From the IMG/VR virus record IMGVR_UViG_3300023199_000204, positions 248,001-312,000 of that record: a stretch of DNA of 64,000 bases; one strand, given 5' to 3'. Below the pieces are notes generated by a model. It saw only the letters and a list, made by a program, of their open reading frames with translations. It was not told the DNA's origin and did no database searches. This DNA is from a virus. Positions 4,952 to 53,214 of the stretch are shown in pieces (the stretch's first letter is position 1; each line of letters begins with the position of its first letter). The position numbers and the translations under genes are program-made.

Positions 4952-5041
4952 AAAAACAAAACATAAGATATATTATATTTAATTACTACTAATAATTTAG
5001 CATACTCATCGAAATGATATACAAAATTATGGAGGTGTGAT

Positions 5042-5149
5042 ATGGCATTTGTATTAGGTCTTTTACTAGGAGCTGTAGTTAGTCCTCCACTTTACCTATT
5101 AGGAAAGTGGGGCTACGGAAAATTGAAAGAGAAATTTTCAAAGGAATAA
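5042..5149 (+). CDS. single-pass membrane peptide, 35 aa
   Basis: A 35-residue peptide with one hydrophobic segment (AFVLGLLLGAVVSPPLYLL) and a lysine-rich tail, preceded by a strong GGAGGTG site. A GGGGC/GCCCC hairpin follows at 5157-5170. Function unknown. Confidence 0.6.
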   Translation: MAFVLGLLLGAVVSPPLYLLGKWGYGKLKEKFSKE

Positions 5150-5154
5150 TAAAG

Positions 5155-5183
5155 ATGGGGCTTTAGCCCCTATTTAATTTTGA
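5155..5183 (+). terminator. weak hairpin, possible terminator
   Basis: The sequence GGGGCTTTAGCCCC forms a 5-bp hairpin followed by an imperfect U-rich tract (TATTTAATTTT). The short stem makes termination uncertain. Confidence 0.35.
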
Positions 5184-5835: not shown

Positions 5836-6831
5836 ATGATTGCTACTATTACTAAAGTAGATATGGTTGTGGATTTGGATCACGGAGATTGCGGAAAAGG
5901 AAAGATAAGTCACTGTTTGCTTTCCGAAAAAAAATATAATTATGTTTGTAAAGCTTCTGGTGGGAACAATGCTGGTCATACTATCTATCATAATAATGAG
6001 AAGTTTATAACCCATTATTCTCCGTCTGGAGTATTTAAGAATATTAATTCAGTAATATGTTCAGGATGTGTTGTACATCCTGAATCGTTTTTAGAGGAAG
6101 TTGGAAATTTAGTTTCACGAGGAATTCCTGCTGATAAGTTATTGAAAATTGCTTATAATGCTCATTTAGTAACTGATGAACATATAAAAGAAGATGTTGA
6201 AAATAATGTAGTTGGCAGTACTGGCAAAGGAATAGCACCAGCTTATAGAGATAAATATAATAGAACTGGACACCGAGTAGAAAAGTCTAAGCTTCTTCAA
6301 CCATTTTTATTTGATCCTATTATCTTACACAAGGCATCTAGAATTTTAGTTGAGGGTTCTCAAGGAATGTGGTTGTGTCCTGATCACGGAGATTACCCTT
6401 ATGTTACATCTAGTCCTCCTACTTCTTCTTACGCTCTACATTCTTTGGGCATGGCTCCAAGGAACGTAGGAGAGGTAATAGGAGTGTGTAAGCCATATTC
6501 AACATATGTTGGAACAAAAGATTTTCAACCAGATGGCAACATATATAAACAAATTCAAGATGTTGGAAAAGAATTTGGAGCCACGACTGGTCGTATGAGA
6601 CAAGTTCGAGAACTAAATCTATTAAAATTATATAAAGCAGCTCAAATTAATGGAGTAGATTATATAGTAATAAACAAGATGGATGTGTTAAGAGAAGTCA
6701 ATTATTGGAAATTATTAATAGACAAGGATAAACTTATTGACCGAAAAAATGAAGATAGTTTTAAAGAATACATAGTACAGTATATGAACAAATTTGAAAT
6801 AAAATTCTCATATAGTCCTAATAAGATATGA
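5836..6831 (+). CDS. short adenylosuccinate synthetase (PurA/PurZ superfamily)
   Basis: A 331-residue member of the adenylosuccinate synthetase family. The P-loop-like HGDCGKGK is at 16-23 and the catalytic NNAGH around 44-48, followed by STGKGIAPAYRDK and TTGRMRQVR signatures. The family joins aspartate to IMP using GTP; phage PurZ relatives act on dGMP for 2-aminoadenine DNA. The protein is about 100 residues shorter than bacterial PurA and similar in size to archaeal and phage forms. The aspartate of GDxGKGK is kept, as in PurA. It stands alone, with no other Z-genome gene visible. PurA versus PurZ-like substrate use cannot be settled here. Confidence 0.8.
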   Translation: MIATITKVDMVVDLDHGDCGKGKISHCLLSEKKYNYVCKASGGNNAGHTIYHNNEKFITHYSPSGVFKNINSVICSGCVVHPESFLEEVGNLVSRGIPADKLLKIAYNAHLVTDEHIKEDVENNVVGSTGKGIAPAYRDKYNRTGHRVEKSKLLQPFLFDPIILHKASRILVEGSQGMWLCPDHGDYPYVTSSPPTSSYALHSLGMAPRNVGEVIGVCKPYSTYVGTKDFQPDGNIYKQIQDVGKEFGATTGRMRQVRELNLLKLYKAAQINGVDYIVINKMDVLREVNYWKLLIDKDKLIDRKNEDSFKEYIVQYMNKFEIKFSYSPNKI

Positions 6832-7659: not shown

Positions 7660-7759
7660 GGAGCAGTAAAAGAGTTAGTAGAACAGCTCGGAACGAGAAA
7701 CGAAAGCTCAGCCTTCTTAGGAAGTGTGGAAAATGTAGGTTCGAGTCCTACCTGCTCCG
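7660..7759 (+). tRNA. tRNA-Ser(CGA)-like, atypical
   Basis: The acceptor GGAGCAG pairs perfectly with CTGCTCC, G is the discriminator, and the T arm is GTAGG-TTCGAGT-CCTAC. A CTTC/GAAG variable stem marks a class II tRNA. CGA is the best anticodon reading, but the anticodon loop lacks U33 and the D arm is shifted. An orthodox tRNA-Ser(CGA) occurs at 46077. Confidence 0.5.
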
Positions 7760-29115: not shown

Positions 29116-29248
29116 GGATGCGTTGAGCAGTGCGGTGAGCTTGGCGGGCTGTGGGGATTGATTAAATGGTAATTTTAATGAGTTCGATTCTCACATTCCC
29201 AAAACCCCGTGGTCTTCGGGCTTGTAGGTTCGATTCCTACCGCATCCA
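29116..29248 (+). tRNA. tRNA-Tyr(GUA) interrupted in the anticodon by a tRNA-like element
   Basis: The outer gene has acceptor GGATGCG/CGCATCC, D stem GAGC/GCTT, anticodon stem GCGGG (29144-29148)/CCCGT (29206-29210), variable arm GGTC-TTCG-GGCT, T arm GTAGG-TTCGATT-CCTAC and A73. Between anticodon positions 35 (U29152) and 36 (A29203) lie 50 extra bases. Removing them gives loop CTGTAAC with anticodon GUA. The class II variable arm and A73 both fit bacterial tRNA-Tyr. No other tRNA-Tyr is present in the window. Confidence 0.75.
29153..29202 (+). other. inner tRNA-like element 1 (no anticodon arm)
   Basis: GGGGAT pairs with ATTCCC, extendable by U29152-A29201. A D-like hairpin ATT/AAT has GG in its loop. 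Only TTTAA separates it from a T arm TGAG-TTCGATT-CTCA. There is no anticodon arm. It shares TGAGTTCGATTCTCAC with element 2 at 31135-31150. The exact ends are uncertain by one base. Confidence 0.6.
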
Positions 29249-29262
29249 ATAGGAGAAAGAAA

Positions 29263-29620
29263 ATTAATTTAGGAAGCATTTTAGATGACTATAATAAATT
29301 TTATAGTAGGATATTAAGTTATTTTAATATAAATTATTTAAGTGGAGATATATCAGACTCCAGAGAGTATTACTGGTTTAATGATTATGATTCACTTTAT
29401 TTCTTTTCAAAAAAAACCAAAATATAAAACTGTATATGAAAAAGGACCAGAATATAAAAGTACGATAAGTTCTTATCACGGAGTAGGCGTAGTAAATGGT
29501 GGAGATTTGACACTTGTTCAAGTTATTGATGACTGCGGAGGTGGTGATATAGCTATGATTCTCGATAATAAAAAGAAAATAACAGATGAGAAAATTATAG
29601 AATTAGTTGAAGAATTTTAG
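29263..29620 (+). pseudogene. frameshifted hypothetical gene with ATT start
   Basis: AGGAG at 29250-29254 is correctly spaced to ATT 29263, not to an ATG. The frame runs through NLGSILDDYNKF to SLYFFSKK, then a shift at the A8 run (about 29408-29416) leads to YKTVYEKGPEYKSTISSYHG and VIDDCGGGDIAMILDN, ending at 29620. Read as one gene it gives about 118 residues of unknown function. Confidence 0.5.
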
Positions 29621-29629
29621 GTAGAGAGG

Positions 29630-30167
29630 ATGATAAAAGGATTTCGTGAATATGGCTACAATACGGAAATAAAAAATATAAAAGAGGTGGTTTTTGAAGA
29701 TTTTAAGGTAAGGGAAGAGGACAGGGAAGGTGTTAATATATTATTTGCTGTATATAGACACCCACCTTATTGAAGGATATGCTCTCGTTTTCTTTGAAAA
29801 AAATGGGAAGTTATATGAGGTTCAAAGCTCTCACTGTTCTTGTAGGGGACTTGAGGAGCAGTGGTCCCCATAAGAAACTAACTATGAGACTGTAAAATTT
29901 AGAATTAAGGGCAATAGCTATTGGGGTTGGGATGAATATTCAAATGATATTCTTAAGATTTTAAAAGAAAGGTTTGGTATTATGAAACAAAAAGATTGGA
30001 CGCTTGAGCAAGAGTATTTTAGTTGGAAAAGATGGGATCAATGTGATACACTATCAGTAATTTTTTACGAGGTTCAGTTTAAGAAAAGCTTTGGCGTGTT
30101 TAGTAAAGGAGAGGAATTCGGAAGCATTATGCTTTCTTATAAAGATGGAATTATTGAAGCTTATTAA
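29630..30167 (+). pseudogene. conserved-looking gene with a frameshift and an in-frame TAA
   Basis: ATG 29630 follows GAGAGG. After YRHPPY one base is extra. The next frame, IEGYALVFFEKNGKLYEVQS then HCSCRGLEEQW, resembles phage proteins with a similar HCSC.GLE segment. TAA at 29871-29873 follows QWSP, and the frame then stays open for 98 codons to 30167. Two independent lesions suggest decay or error. Confidence 0.5.
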
Positions 30168-30280
30168 AAAGATGGAGAAGAAGTTTTAAAGACTCAAAAA
30201 TTTAGATTACAACCATTTATGGAACAATAATCAACATCATTTGTTTTCTAGGATATAGTGATTTAATTTAATAGGAAAAA

Positions 30281-30352
30281 TCCGGGTTAGTGAAATGGCA
30301 TCATCGCACGGCTGTTAACCGTGAATTAGAGGTTCGAGTCCTCTACCCGGAG
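30281..30352 (+). tRNA. tRNA-Asn(GUU), copy 1
   Basis: The acceptor TCCGGGT pairs with ACCCGGA, with G73. Stem CACGG/CCGTG closes loop CTGTTAA. The T arm is AGAGG-TTCGAGT-CCTCT. Confidence 0.9.
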
Positions 30353-30366
30353 ATAAGGAGAAAGGA

Positions 30367-30751
30367 ATGTCTAATAAATAAAAAAGAAGTTCTAGAGGTG
30401 TTAGAAAGGTATGAAGAGATTAAAAGTGAAATTAAAGGAACATTCTTAATTTATGCTAAATATTGTGGTATTTAAGTTTCAGAAATAGTTCATATTGAGG
30501 TAAACGAAAGTGAGGTTGAAGTAGAATACACTGAGCCAGGCGGATGTAGCTGTTGCTATACTAGTAGATACTCTACTTTTCCTATTAGTTATTTATGGGA
30601 AGAGAATTGGATTGAAAAGCTAAAAGCTAAGCATCAAGTGGAATTAGCCGAAAAAATTAAAAAGAAAGAAGAGGAAAAAGAAAGAAGAGAAAGAGAGCAA
30701 CTAGAGCTGGATAAAAAGCTTTATAAAAGATTAAAAGAAAAATTCGGCTAA
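30367..30751 (+). pseudogene. coiled-coil protein gene with frameshift and in-frame TAA
   Basis: ATG 30367 behind AAGGAGAAAGG gives MSNK then TAA; a one-base shift in the A run gives KKEVLEVLERYEEIKSE. TAA at 30473-30475 is followed in the same frame by 91 codons, including GGCSCCYTSRYSTFPISYLW and a charged helical tail, to TAA 30749. The CSCCY...S..P.S.LW layout is common in phage proteins of unknown role. Confidence 0.5.
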
Positions 30752-30803
30752 AATAATCTTAGAGGCAGATTCCACTGGGTGAGTTAATAAGGAAAGTAAA
30801 ATA

Positions 30804-31028
30804 ATGAATTTCGCAAAATGGTTTAGAGAACAGCAAAAAGACGCTAAGGCTGTAATTAATTTAACAAAACTTGATGTCAGAGATGAGCCTTGTCTTACCC
30901 TAAAGGGCAATAATAAATATAAAGTTTTGATAACACAAAATACATTTATTTCGAATGTATGTGGAATTTTCGTTGAAGATGTAAATTATGTATTAATGGA
31001 GGCACAAAATGAAGAAACGAAAACGTAA
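30804..31028 (+). CDS. hypothetical protein, 74 aa
   Basis: It is preceded by AAGGAAAG. Begins MNFAKWFREQQKDAK. No family recognised. Confidence 0.55.
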   Translation: MNFAKWFREQQKDAKAVINLTKLDVRDEPCLTLKGNNKYKVLITQNTFISNVCGIFVEDVNYVLMEAQNEETKT

Positions 31029-31048
31029 ATAAAAATCAGGCAAACTAT

Positions 31049-31196
31049 GCCTCCGTGGTGTTAATGGCTTAGCACACTGGATTTTGCGAAAGACATTTGG
31101 TATGTAGATGTTAGAGGCAACTCTTTGGTCTAAGTGAGTTCGATTCTCACCTTTCGCGTAATCCATGAAGTGTGGGTTCGAATCCTACCGGGGCTA
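31049..31196 (+). tRNA. tRNA-Lys(UUU) interrupted in the anticodon by a tRNA-like element
   Basis: The outer gene has acceptor GCCTCCG/CGGGGCT (one mismatch), D stem GTGT/GCAC, anticodon stem CTGGA/TCCAT and T arm GTGGG-TTCGAAT-CCTAC, with A73. Bases 31086-31158 split the anticodon after position 35. Joining TTTT to TAA restores the 7-nt loop TTTTTAA with anticodon UUU. This is the same insertion point as in the tRNA-Tyr gene at 29116. No uninterrupted tRNA-Lys(UUU) is present in the window. Confidence 0.75.
31086..31158 (+). other. inner tRNA-like element 2 (no usable anticodon)
   Basis: GCGAAAG pairs perfectly with CTTTCGC, with discriminator G. A D-like arm ACAT/ATGT encloses TTGGTATGTAG, and the T arm is GTGAG-TTCGATT-CTCAC. 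Where an anticodon arm should be there is AGAG-GCAA-CTCT, a GNRA-capped hairpin without a 7-nt loop. The length is 73 nt. Confidence 0.65.
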
Positions 31197-32469: not shown

Positions 32470-32874
32470 ATGTTTGGAGTTAAAAGTGTTTCAGCATTAG
32501 TTCTTAACGAACTCATCCAAACTCAAGATGAGTATGTAAGAAAAAAAGCTTTGTCAAGGATACACAAAAGCATTAAGAGGCTTAAAAATATATTTGATGA
32601 ACTTGAAGGTATAAAAAACAGAAATGTATTTGATGATCTTTATTTTTCAACATAGGAGGCTATACTTGATAAAGTATTAGATGATAAGTGTATTCCATAT
32701 AAGGTAGCATCATATATTCATACAACATTAACTTCTTATATTAGAAGTAGAAGAAGAGAGATATATCTTAAAAATTATTTTGTTAAGAAGAAAAGGGGTA
32801 GGAAGAGATTAATAAACAAGACCAAAAAACATTTGGAAGAATATGAAAGTTATATAAATTCAGCTGTCTTCTAA
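32470..32874 (+). pseudogene. hypothetical gene with in-frame TAG
   Basis: ATG 32470 opens a helical protein; TAG at 32653-32655 follows DDLYFST. The frame then continues for 72 codons (EAILDKVLDDKCIPYKVA..., SYIRSRRREIYL) to TAA 32872-32874. Its last codons overlap the truncated tRNA-Gln. Confidence 0.5.
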
Positions 32875-32933
32875 CTGGATAAGATCCCTGGCTTTGAACT
32901 AGGGCAATGTGGGTTCGAATCCCATTATTCCCG
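32865..32933 (+). tRNA. tRNA-Gln(UUG), 5' acceptor strand missing
   Basis: D stem TCTT/AAGA, anticodon stem CCTGG/CTAGG around CTTTGAA (UUG) and T arm GTGGG-TTCGAAT-CCCAT are intact. The 3' strand TATTCCC has no partner upstream, where the end of a protein gene lies instead. Probably a truncated tRNA. Confidence 0.55.
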
Positions 32934-34789: not shown

Positions 34790-34870
34790 GATTAAATAAC
34801 ATCGCATTGGGCTGACCAAAAAACGCAGCTGGGTTAAAGCTCCCGGCAGGTTTAATCTAAGTAGATGTTA
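34790..34870 (+). ncRNA. possible pseudoknotted RNA
   Basis: GATTAAA (34790-34796) can pair with TTTAATC (34851-34857), and the adjacent TAACATC (34797-34803) with GATGTTA (34864-34870). The two 7-bp stems cross, as in an H-type pseudoknot, and a GC-rich hairpin (CTGGG/CCCGG) sits in the large loop. No coding frame of note covers it. No known RNA family is recognised. Confidence 0.35.
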
Positions 34871-34914
34871 GTATGAAAGATTAGTAGATGTTCCGAGTAT
34901 TGATTATTAAAGAC

Positions 34915-35000
34915 ATTCCGATAGTTTAATGGCAAAAACGCCCGCACCCAGCACAATGCGATTTGAAGCGGGAGATGTTGGTTCGAGTCCGACAGAGTTT
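34915..35000 (+). other. tRNA-Gln-like sequence with enlarged anticodon loop
   Basis: D stem GTTT/AAAC, anticodon stem CCCGC/GCGGG and T arm GTTGG-TTCGAGT-CCGAC are present. The loop has 22 nt instead of 7; dropping 15 would leave ATTTGAA (anticodon UUG). The acceptor strands do not pair. Probably degenerate. Confidence 0.4.
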
Positions 35001-35005
35001 GTTGA

Positions 35006-40623: not shown

Positions 40624-40634
40624 AAATAAATAAC

Positions 40635-40717
40635 GCATCCCGTTCCAGACGCCTGTCTTCTAAATAGGTTCCTTAATAGTTTGGGGGAGGTAAGAGGTTC
40701 GAGTCCTCCGGGGTGTT
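40635..40717 (+). tRNA. tRNA-Arg(UCU)-like, atypical arms
   Basis: The acceptor GCATCCC pairs with GGGGTGT, stem CCTGT/ATAGG closes loop CTTCTAA, and the T arm is GAGG-TTCGAGT-CCTC. Only about 10 nt lie where the D arm should be and about 24 nt form the variable region, so the fold is unusual. Confidence 0.6.
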
Positions 40718-51906: not shown

Positions 51907-53214
51907 ATGTCAGTAATAGCAATGGAAGTAATGGAGGCGTTTGATCATCCAAATGCTGATTCATTAAGAGTTTATAAATTTATAGCACCAGGGCAAGCAT
52001 CAAAAGAGCGTCCACTTCAAATAGTTGCGAATCTTGAAAATGTGTATGAGGTTGGCGATGTCGTTGCTGTTGCGTTGGTTGGAACTGTTTTAAAAGATGA
52101 AACCACTATCAAAAAAGTAAATCTTCGTGGAGAGTCTTCATACGGAATGGCTTTGGGAAAAGTCGATGCCAAGGTCGGCGAAAATCTTTCTGATAAATAT
52201 GAGGCAGAAGAGATAAAACCTTCAATGGCAGGATTTATTAAATGGCCGAGCATTTCAGGTTTTCATAATATTAGAAAATCATTAGAGAAAATAAAAGAAT
52301 ATGAGGGAGGTGCTTTTACTTATCCAAAACTTGATTACAAATGTAAAGTGAAATTACACGGAACGAATTCGGGTGTTCATTTACATTCTGATGGAACATT
52401 TGCTGTTCAAAGTCGTTCAAGAATATTAACTCCTGAGCACGATAATTTGGGGTTTTATAGATGGACGCAGGATAGGAAAAATCATTTTGAAAAGTGGGCA
52501 AAATCTGCCGGTAGAAATTTAACCGTATTCGGAGAATTTTGTGGAGAGGGAATTCAAAAAGGCGTTGCTGTATCCAAGATAGAGAGGAAGATATTTGTTG
52601 TTTTCGCAGTCCAAGTTGATGAAAATACACTAATAACCGATCCAGAAGAAATCAATGGTTATGTTTTGGAACACGAAGATATAAAAGTTTTACCTTGGTA
52701 TGATGCTAATTTCTTCATTGATTATTCAAATACTGATTTGTTAAGGGCTGTTATTAAGGATATAAATGCTGAGGTAGATAAAGTAGAAAAAGAAGACCCT
52801 TGGGTAAAAGAAGTTTTTGGAGTGAGTGGTATAGGCGAAGGGTTAGTTTTTTATCCTTATAAAGAATATGATAGGGATAGAATATCTTTATTAATGTTTA
52901 AAGCGAAAGGAGAGAAGCATCAGGTTGCTGTTCAAAATAAGCCAGTCCAACTAGATCCAGAAGTATTAAATTCAATTAATGAGTTCTCTGATAAATTCAT
53001 TACAGAGGCAAGACTTGAACAAGGAGTTGCTGAAGGTTGTGATGGCAAGTTGGAAATGAAAATGATGGGTAAGTTTATTAAATGGATTATGTCTGATGTT
53101 AATAAAGAATCAAAAGACGAATTGGAAGCTTCGGGACTTAAATGGAAACAAGTAGGAAAAGAAGTTTCAAGTCGAGCCAGAAATTGGTATAAACAAAAGG
53201 TGGAAGAAATATAA
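51907..53214 (+). CDS. RNA ligase with N-terminal tRNA-binding domain
   Basis: 435 residues. Residues 1-105 match the OB-fold tRNA-binding domain of MetG/PheT: EAFDHPNADSLRVYKF near 10-25, QIVANLENVYEVGD and VNLRGESSYGMALGKVD. From about 135 comes a nucleotidyl-transferase RNA ligase: motif I KVKLHGTN with the adenylated lysine near 148, EFCGEGIQKGV, EGLVFYPYKE and motif V MFKAKGEKH. Rnl2/DraRnl-type ligases join 3'-OH and 5'-phosphate RNA ends with ATP. The added domain points to tRNA as substrate. It starts behind AAAGGAAAAG with no overlap. Two interrupted tRNA genes lie 20-23 kb upstream. Confidence 0.85.
   Translation: MSVIAMEVMEAFDHPNADSLRVYKFIAPGQASKERPLQIVANLENVYEVGDVVAVALVGTVLKDETTIKKVNLRGESSYGMALGKVDAKVGENLSDKYEAEEIKPSMAGFIKWPSISGFHNIRKSLEKIKEYEGGAFTYPKLDYKCKVKLHGTNSGVHLHSDGTFAVQSRSRILTPEHDNLGFYRWTQDRKNHFEKWAKSAGRNLTVFGEFCGEGIQKGVAVSKIERKIFVVFAVQVDENTLITDPEEINGYVLEHEDIKVLPWYDANFFIDYSNTDLLRAVIKDINAEVDKVEKEDPWVKEVFGVSGIGEGLVFYPYKEYDRDRISLLMFKAKGEKHQVAVQNKPVQLDPEVLNSINEFSDKFITEARLEQGVAEGCDGKLEMKMMGKFIKWIMSDVNKESKDELEASGLKWKQVGKEVSSRARNWYKQKVEEI

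Follow-up and report, generated by a model that had tools for sequence, protein, structure and literature searches.

Two tRNA genes of a large phage, those for tRNA-Tyr(GUA) and tRNA-Lys(UUU), are interrupted within the anticodon loop by an insert that is itself shaped like a tRNA, and it is quite likely that these inserts are introns excised by RNase P together with an RNase Z-type activity, with an RNA ligase of the phage joining the exons. Both genes lie in the window, that is, the whole stretch of 64,000 nucleotides analysed here, which covers positions 248001-312000 of the 316-kb virus record IMGVR_UViG_3300023199_000204. The inserts have a defined anatomy and exact boundaries, they recur in tRNA genes of other phages, the exons flanking them covary, and RNA ligases co-occur with them; splicing itself and the enzymes involved in it are what we infer from these sequences. 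These observations point to a type of intron apparently not described before, which tRNA end-processing would remove and a phage ligase would close.

Anatomy of the split tRNA-Tyr and tRNA-Lys genes

The outer tRNAs at 29116-29248 and 31049-31196 are complete, and each is interrupted in its anticodon loop (Table 1). Deletion in silico of 29153-29202 yields tRNA-Tyr(gta) and that of 31086-31158 yields tRNA-Lys(ttt), whereas the unspliced genes give no tRNA call, and a deletion window slid along either gene produces the right isotype and anticodon at the predicted position only; thus, nesting in both genes is far above chance. The spliced tRNA-Tyr carries a long variable arm, as is typical of bacterial tRNA-Tyr, while the exons of tRNA-Lys show one mismatch in the acceptor stem (2-71) and one in the anticodon stem (27-43). 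When left unspliced, both genes fall below the Rfam tRNA threshold, and they are the weakest members of the nested set described below. ARAGORN recognises 32 tRNAs across the 316-kb genome, tRNA-Tyr and tRNA-Lys being absent from its list, and no further copy of either was found elsewhere in the phage genome. CCA is encoded by none of the 26 tRNAs of this phage that were examined.

Table 1. Coordinates of the split tRNA genes and of the RNA ligase gene in the window
Feature	Positions	Strand	Description
tRNA-Tyr(GUA) 5' exon	29116..29152	+	Acceptor 5' strand, D arm, 5' anticodon stem, loop C32 U33 G34 U35
tRNA-Tyr insert, 50 nt, tRNA-shaped	29153..29202	+	Ends set by the uninterrupted homologue in OP820700
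tRNA-Tyr 3' exon	29203..29248	+	Loop AAC, anticodon stem, long variable arm, T arm, acceptor 3' strand, discriminator A
tRNA-Lys(UUU) 5' exon	31049..31085	+	Final loop bases U32-U35
tRNA-Lys insert, 73 nt, tRNA-shaped	31086..31158	+	Placed by fold and splicing test
tRNA-Lys 3' exon	31159..31196	+	Loop U36 A37 A38, anticodon stem, T arm, acceptor, discriminator A
RNA ligase with N-terminal tRNA-binding (OB-fold) domain	51907..53214	+	Pfam RNA_ligase 2.4e-13, tRNA_bind 4.7e-8

The junction of the Tyr gene can be placed to the base by comparison with a cultured phage. A BLAST match of the Tyr gene among cultured phages begins exactly at 29203, the predicted first base of exon 2. The matched tRNA-Tyr, from Aeromonas phage vB_AdhS_TS3 (OP820700), is uninterrupted and reads GCGGGCTGTAACCCCGTGG, where the window gene has GCGGGCTGT, 50 bases and then AACCCCGTGG; as judged by this match, the Aeromonas phage gene is a natural empty site, base-exact to the predicted Tyr junction. 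Since the acceptor of the Tyr insert can be drawn with either 6 or 7 pairs, its RNase P site is structurally ambiguous by one base, and it is the uninterrupted homologue that settles this ambiguity. The predicted site lies one base inside the possible 7-bp acceptor, which counts against the model.

Each insert is embedded in the anticodon loop of its outer tRNA. As the preliminary description had stated, both keep an acceptor stem and a T arm, and neither has an anticodon. The Lys insert is built from a 7-bp acceptor (GCGAAAG/CTTTCGC), a short GG-containing D arm, an arm capped by a GCAA tetraloop that replaces the anticodon arm, a T arm (GTGAG-TTCGATT-CTCAC) and a discriminator G without CCA, and its predicted fold is a four-arm structure (z -3.7). 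In the Tyr insert, the acceptor GGGGAT/ATTCCC has 6 bp (7 if T29152-A29201 is added) and is accompanied by a GG-containing D-like hairpin and a T arm; the anticodon arm is missing, the 3' end is AA and CCA is absent. The T arm is not formed in the minimum-energy fold of this insert.

The same 16 bases, TGAGTTCGATTCTCAC, do occur once in each insert (29179 and 31135) and are confined to these two positions within the window, yet the earlier reading of them as the mark of one family is unsupported. They represent a common T arm, carried by at least 120 viral contigs, and the ordinary T arms of the window agree mutually at 16-17 of 17 bases; this motif, rejected as a family signature, is thus no evidence of common descent for the Tyr and Lys inserts. 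Aligned to each other, the two inserts score 10.5, against a maximum of 7 for shuffled sequences and 25-71 for related inserts elsewhere, so they are only weakly similar.

Several other loci of the phage have unusual features. A tRNA-Gln(UUG)-like gene at 34795-35002 has an anticodon loop about 15 bases too long and an acceptor that pairs poorly, the extra loop bases being nearly complementary to 34803-34817, some 150 nt upstream; it could be another kind of interrupted tRNA. A second tRNA-Gln(UUG)-like sequence, at 32850-32933, has good D, anticodon and T arms, with the matching 5' acceptor strand missing alongside, and a tRNA-Arg(UCU)-like gene at 40632-40716 apparently has no D arm and shows a long variable region. 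Oversized or odd tRNA-like genes with a good acceptor and T arm, uncalled by ARAGORN, are located at 7660-7759 and at G000 175100-175204 (L010) and 209270-209368 (L142), and are possibly the missing Phe and Asp tRNAs. Among the protein-coding genes, 5836-6831 encodes a homologue of adenylosuccinate synthetase (Pfam 6e-74), which may be of the type that phages use for modified purines, and 1028-2809 is a DHH/DHHA1 phosphoesterase ORF that also carries a homing-endonuclease-associated repeat.

Nested tRNA genes in other phages and the rule for insert ends

Two T loops separated by 25-60 nt are impossible for ordinary tandem tRNAs and can be used as a signature of nested genes; IMG/VR was searched for it and the candidates were then splicing-tested. 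At least 31 further distinct nested tRNAs were obtained, 30 of them on IMG/VR viral contigs and one (L497) on a contig of a bacterial metagenome-assembled genome (MAG), and at least 11 isoacceptors are hit when the window pair is included. The outer tRNAs listed beyond the window are Leu(UAA), Lys(UUU), Arg(UCU), Ile(UAU), Thr(UGU), Gln(UUG), Asn(GUU), Leu(CAA), Pro(UGG) and Glu(UUC), and one 233-kb phage (L309) has three nested tRNAs. In all 33 curated cases, window pair included, the outer tRNA is complete apart from the insert in its anticodon loop, and the insert length ranges from 50 to 123 nt among the cases listed. A few inserts are complete tRNAs (Phe in L187, Asn in L378, Gly in L613), while the majority have no anticodon. 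The elements thus recur nested inside other tRNAs, rather than only as the free-standing pseudogenes that the preliminary description had envisaged as the refuting outcome. Sequence queries against cultured phages matched ordinary tRNAs only, with no nested gene, and in a pattern scan of cellular genome contigs only L497 was convincingly nested among the 55 matches listed, L463 being doubtful. L497 is a 4.4-kb contig in a Clostridium MAG and is possibly phage.

Some of these loci have features of their own. In L187, at about 5020-5170, a canonical complete tRNA-Phe(GAA) lies within the anticodon loop of a tRNA-Arg(UCU), and this single gene could give rise to two tRNAs. The tRNA-Ile(UAU) insert of L399 and L450 folds as a full tRNA whose anticodon is CUA (amber), and acceptor pair 1 changes from C-G to G-C between the two. 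Moreover, the tRNA-Leu-like genes of L163, L176, L221 and L259 carry, in the anticodon/variable region, one more hairpin that resembles a T arm (GCTCG-TTCGATT-CGAGC or similar), which the nested model does not explain.

The ends of the inserts follow one rule. Excision from the 5' base of the inner acceptor through the discriminator and CCA, or a one-base variant of it, restores a 7-nt loop in 31 of the 31 cases listed, the 3' ends being NCCA in 29, ACTA in one and ACCC in one. Among 57 candidates with 5/5 stem pairs, in which the outer anticodon stem was picked blind to the insert end, 28 placed that end at the acceptor plus 4 nt, as expected for NCCA, and every other offset was found at most four times. 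In the window phage, tRNAs and inserts alike are without CCA, so that insert ends track the tRNA ends of the genome that hosts them; under this local rule the ends coincide with mature tRNA ends, the window Tyr insert to within one base. Exon 1 ends in U in 29 of 33 cases and in C in the other 4, every insert of the curated set starts with G or C, and in the three tRNAs with G34 (3/3) the junction follows U35 and not position 34. A U before G is a favoured context for RNase P; nevertheless, the loop is U-rich anyway and the U at this position is therefore supporting evidence only.

The exons flanking the inserts behave as parts of one tRNA. Despite the intervening insert, the two halves of the anticodon stem are paired in 98% of cells, compared with 59% after shuffling of partners (best shuffle 70%), and the insert acceptors are paired at 99.6% versus 57%, these percentages being biased upwards because the curated list required at least 4 of 5 stem pairs. 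That filter explains neither the variety of pair types nor the offset test: several pair types, with compensatory changes, occur at 27-43, 28-42, 29-41 and 31-39 of the outer anticodon stem. In addition, with the insert left in, four whole nested genes score 39-56 bits under the Rfam tRNA model, as tRNAs with an insertion. These observations bear on the possibility that the nested loci are dead genes, namely tRNA genes disrupted by inserted tRNA genes or fragments and persisting as pseudogenes that are never spliced. tRNA genes are recombination hot spots, several more tRNAs of the window phage look degenerate and the Lys exons of the window contain mismatches, all of which would fit such decay. 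Nevertheless, it appears unlikely, since exon pairing is maintained with compensatory changes across 50-123 nt, one rule describes the insert ends in the 31 cases listed, whole nested genes still score as tRNAs and the split Tyr and Lys genes are the sole copies of their isotypes in the window phage. The loss of constraint expected of a disrupted tRNA is thus not seen, a point that is weaker for the window pair.

Regarding the origin of the inserts, those of L420 (in tRNA-Thr) and L615 (in tRNA-Pro) are 72% alike over their full length, and further similar inserts occur in unlike tRNAs (L407 Lys and L626 Leu; L631 Leu and L262 Lys; shuffled maximum score 7), which suggests movement between tRNA genes. 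The range from a complete tRNA to a 50-nt remnant suggests that a tRNA gene was captured first and lost its anticodon arm later; the complete tRNAs are likely the starting form, and the 50-nt armless inserts would be the reduced end form.

RNA ligases and the proposed route of excision

The ligase of the window (51907-53214) is of the Rnl2 type by its PF09414 domain, in which motif I, Kx(H/D)G, is intact as KLHGTN, and it matches family profile A1. Its nearest solved relatives are T4 Rnl2 and PheRS-beta, and its AlphaFold model (pLDDT 33) is unusable. This protein is proposed as the enzyme that joins the exons. The same phage genome (G000) has another RNA ligase-like match, weaker than this one, at 219364-219828 (PF09414, 28 bits).

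Nested records of at least 80 kb were compared with control records that have tRNAs and no nested gene. An RNA ligase, of Rnl1 type, Rnl2 type or an OB-fold family related to the window ligase, was found in 16 of 19 nested records versus 5 of 24 controls (Fisher p 4e-5, for records that are fragments and not independent by descent), or 7 of 24 controls if every weak Pfam match in them is accepted as a ligase. The OB-fold family by itself is present in 10/19 and 1/24, respectively (p 4e-4). Weak PF09414 matches in G007 (387 aa), G012 (669 aa), G013 (643 aa) and G016 (626 aa) were left uncounted because their length and KxDG motif resemble those of DNA ligases, and one in G041 was also left out as a presumed DNA ligase. 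In three nested records, fragments of 93-108 kb, no ligase was found. RtcB, which joins other kinds of ends than Rnl1 and Rnl2, was considered as the exon ligase and rejected, as it occurs in none of the 19 nested records. A single-protein query retrieved no close relatives of the window ligase from IMG/VR, and an alignment query for its family found distant relatives, mostly on contigs without the nested pattern; hence, the presence of such a ligase does not imply introns.

The view that the inserts are tRNA-shaped introns delimited by tRNA end-processing, already put forward from the window alone, is strongly supported by this comparison, since the same end rule holds in 31 nested tRNAs, the Tyr gene has an empty site and ligases are enriched. 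In the precursor, the acceptor stem of the insert would stack as a small tRNA upon the outer anticodon arm. Host RNase P would cut at the mature 5' end of the insert and leave a 3'-OH on exon 1, which would end after nucleotide 34, 35 or 36, almost always with U. An RNase Z-type endonuclease acting at tRNA 3' ends would cut after the discriminator in the window phage, or after CCA in phages that encode it, leaving a 5'-phosphate on exon 2. The exon halves would be held together by pairing of the anticodon stem and the tRNA body until the phage RNA ligase joined them, so that the anticodon loop regained its normal 7 nt. A 3'-OH left by RNase P and a 5'-phosphate left by RNase Z-type enzymes are the ends that ligases of the Rnl1 and Rnl2 types join. 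RNase Z from T. maritima cleaves directly 3' of CCA and that of E. coli is able to process CCA-containing precursors (PMC7479834), thus cuts at the discriminator and at the CCA end both seem feasible. Moreover, T4 Rnl1 reseals breaks in the anticodon loop by joining tRNA-Lys halves after end healing (PMC3400036). No RNase Z encoded by these phages was found, so the 3' cut would have to be the host's.

The same architecture might instead be read by a dedicated splicing endonuclease, of phage or host, which would recognise the tRNA-like shape in place of RNase P and RNase Z. The phages have no RNase Z, CCA inhibits many bacterial RNase Zs, and another nuclease could equally read the insert ends; nevertheless, we regard this as improbable, given that the ends are mature tRNA ends that switch with CCA encoding, as the ordinary machinery would yield. 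It is very improbable that the loci are compact genes in which the inner RNA, a small tRNA or tRNA-like molecule, is the wanted product and the outer tRNA a mere carrier: some inserts are indeed complete tRNAs, as noted above for Phe, Asn and Gly, but most have no anticodon and every outer tRNA retains its anticodon and stem pairing. Although every case comes from metagenomic contigs, the chance of an assembly or binning artefact seems negligible, because the same nested Gln gene recurs in contigs from three different metagenomes (L272, L325 and L337), true nested genes occur in 0 of 24 control records and the junctions respect structure.

Significance and comparison with known systems

We consider it likely that tRNA-shaped and probably mobile phage introns, cut out by host RNase P and a host 3' endonuclease and closed by a phage ligase, represent a further way of removing introns from tRNAs. 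If so, RNA splicing can be built from universal tRNA-trimming enzymes and a ligase, and phage RNA ligases would gain a second role besides the one they are usually given, the repair of damage by anticodon nucleases. The nested architecture also explains why tRNA finders miss such genes, and phages that seem to be without tRNA-Lys or tRNA-Leu(UAA) may encode them in split form. Neither tRNA-shaped introns nor comparable nested tRNAs were found in the literature searched, mostly open-access journal papers, and an earlier description is possible.

Rfam scans of the window and of five nested loci matched no intron family. Group I introns, which are about 200 nt or more in size, and bulge-helix-bulge introns, in which two 3-nt bulges flank a 4-bp helix at the exon-intron junctions, are both excluded by size, missing core and junction geometry: the inserts have just 50-123 nt and no catalytic core by Rfam, and their junction, as read from the sequences, consists of 3-5 loop bases on one side and NCCA plus 2-4 bases on the other, followed by a 7-bp stem. 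The tRNA introns known from bacteria and phages are self-splicing ribozymes. Group I is the only kind named among the introns of bacterial tRNAs (PMC4090602). As in those genes, the phage inserts occupy the anticodon loop of a bacterial-type tRNA, but group I introns are self-splicing ribozymes, whereas the inserts are smaller and tRNA-structured.

The protein-spliced tRNA introns of archaea and eukaryotes are also small, lie in the anticodon loop and depend on an endonuclease and a ligase, as would the phage inserts. However, the ends of the phage inserts are tRNA ends, set by acceptor stem, discriminator and CCA, and the break would expose a 3'-OH and a 5'-phosphate instead of a cyclic phosphate and a 5'-OH. 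An archaeal tRNA-Trp intron that contains a box C/D RNA is likewise a structured RNA nested within a tRNA, yet it is removed by the splicing endonuclease and its ends are not set by the nested RNA. With its RNA_ligase domain, KLHGTN motif and N-terminal OB/tRNA-binding domain, the window ligase resembles the Rnl2-type/OB-fold ligases (PF09414, PF21189), for which no role in tRNA splicing was found in the literature searched. The proposed reaction is also similar to the repair of PrrC-cut tRNA-Lys by T4 Pnkp and Rnl1, where a phage RNA ligase acts on a break in the anticodon loop. In the phages described here, however, the break would arise by maturation of a genetically encoded insert and, therefore, end healing by a kinase/phosphatase would be unnecessary.
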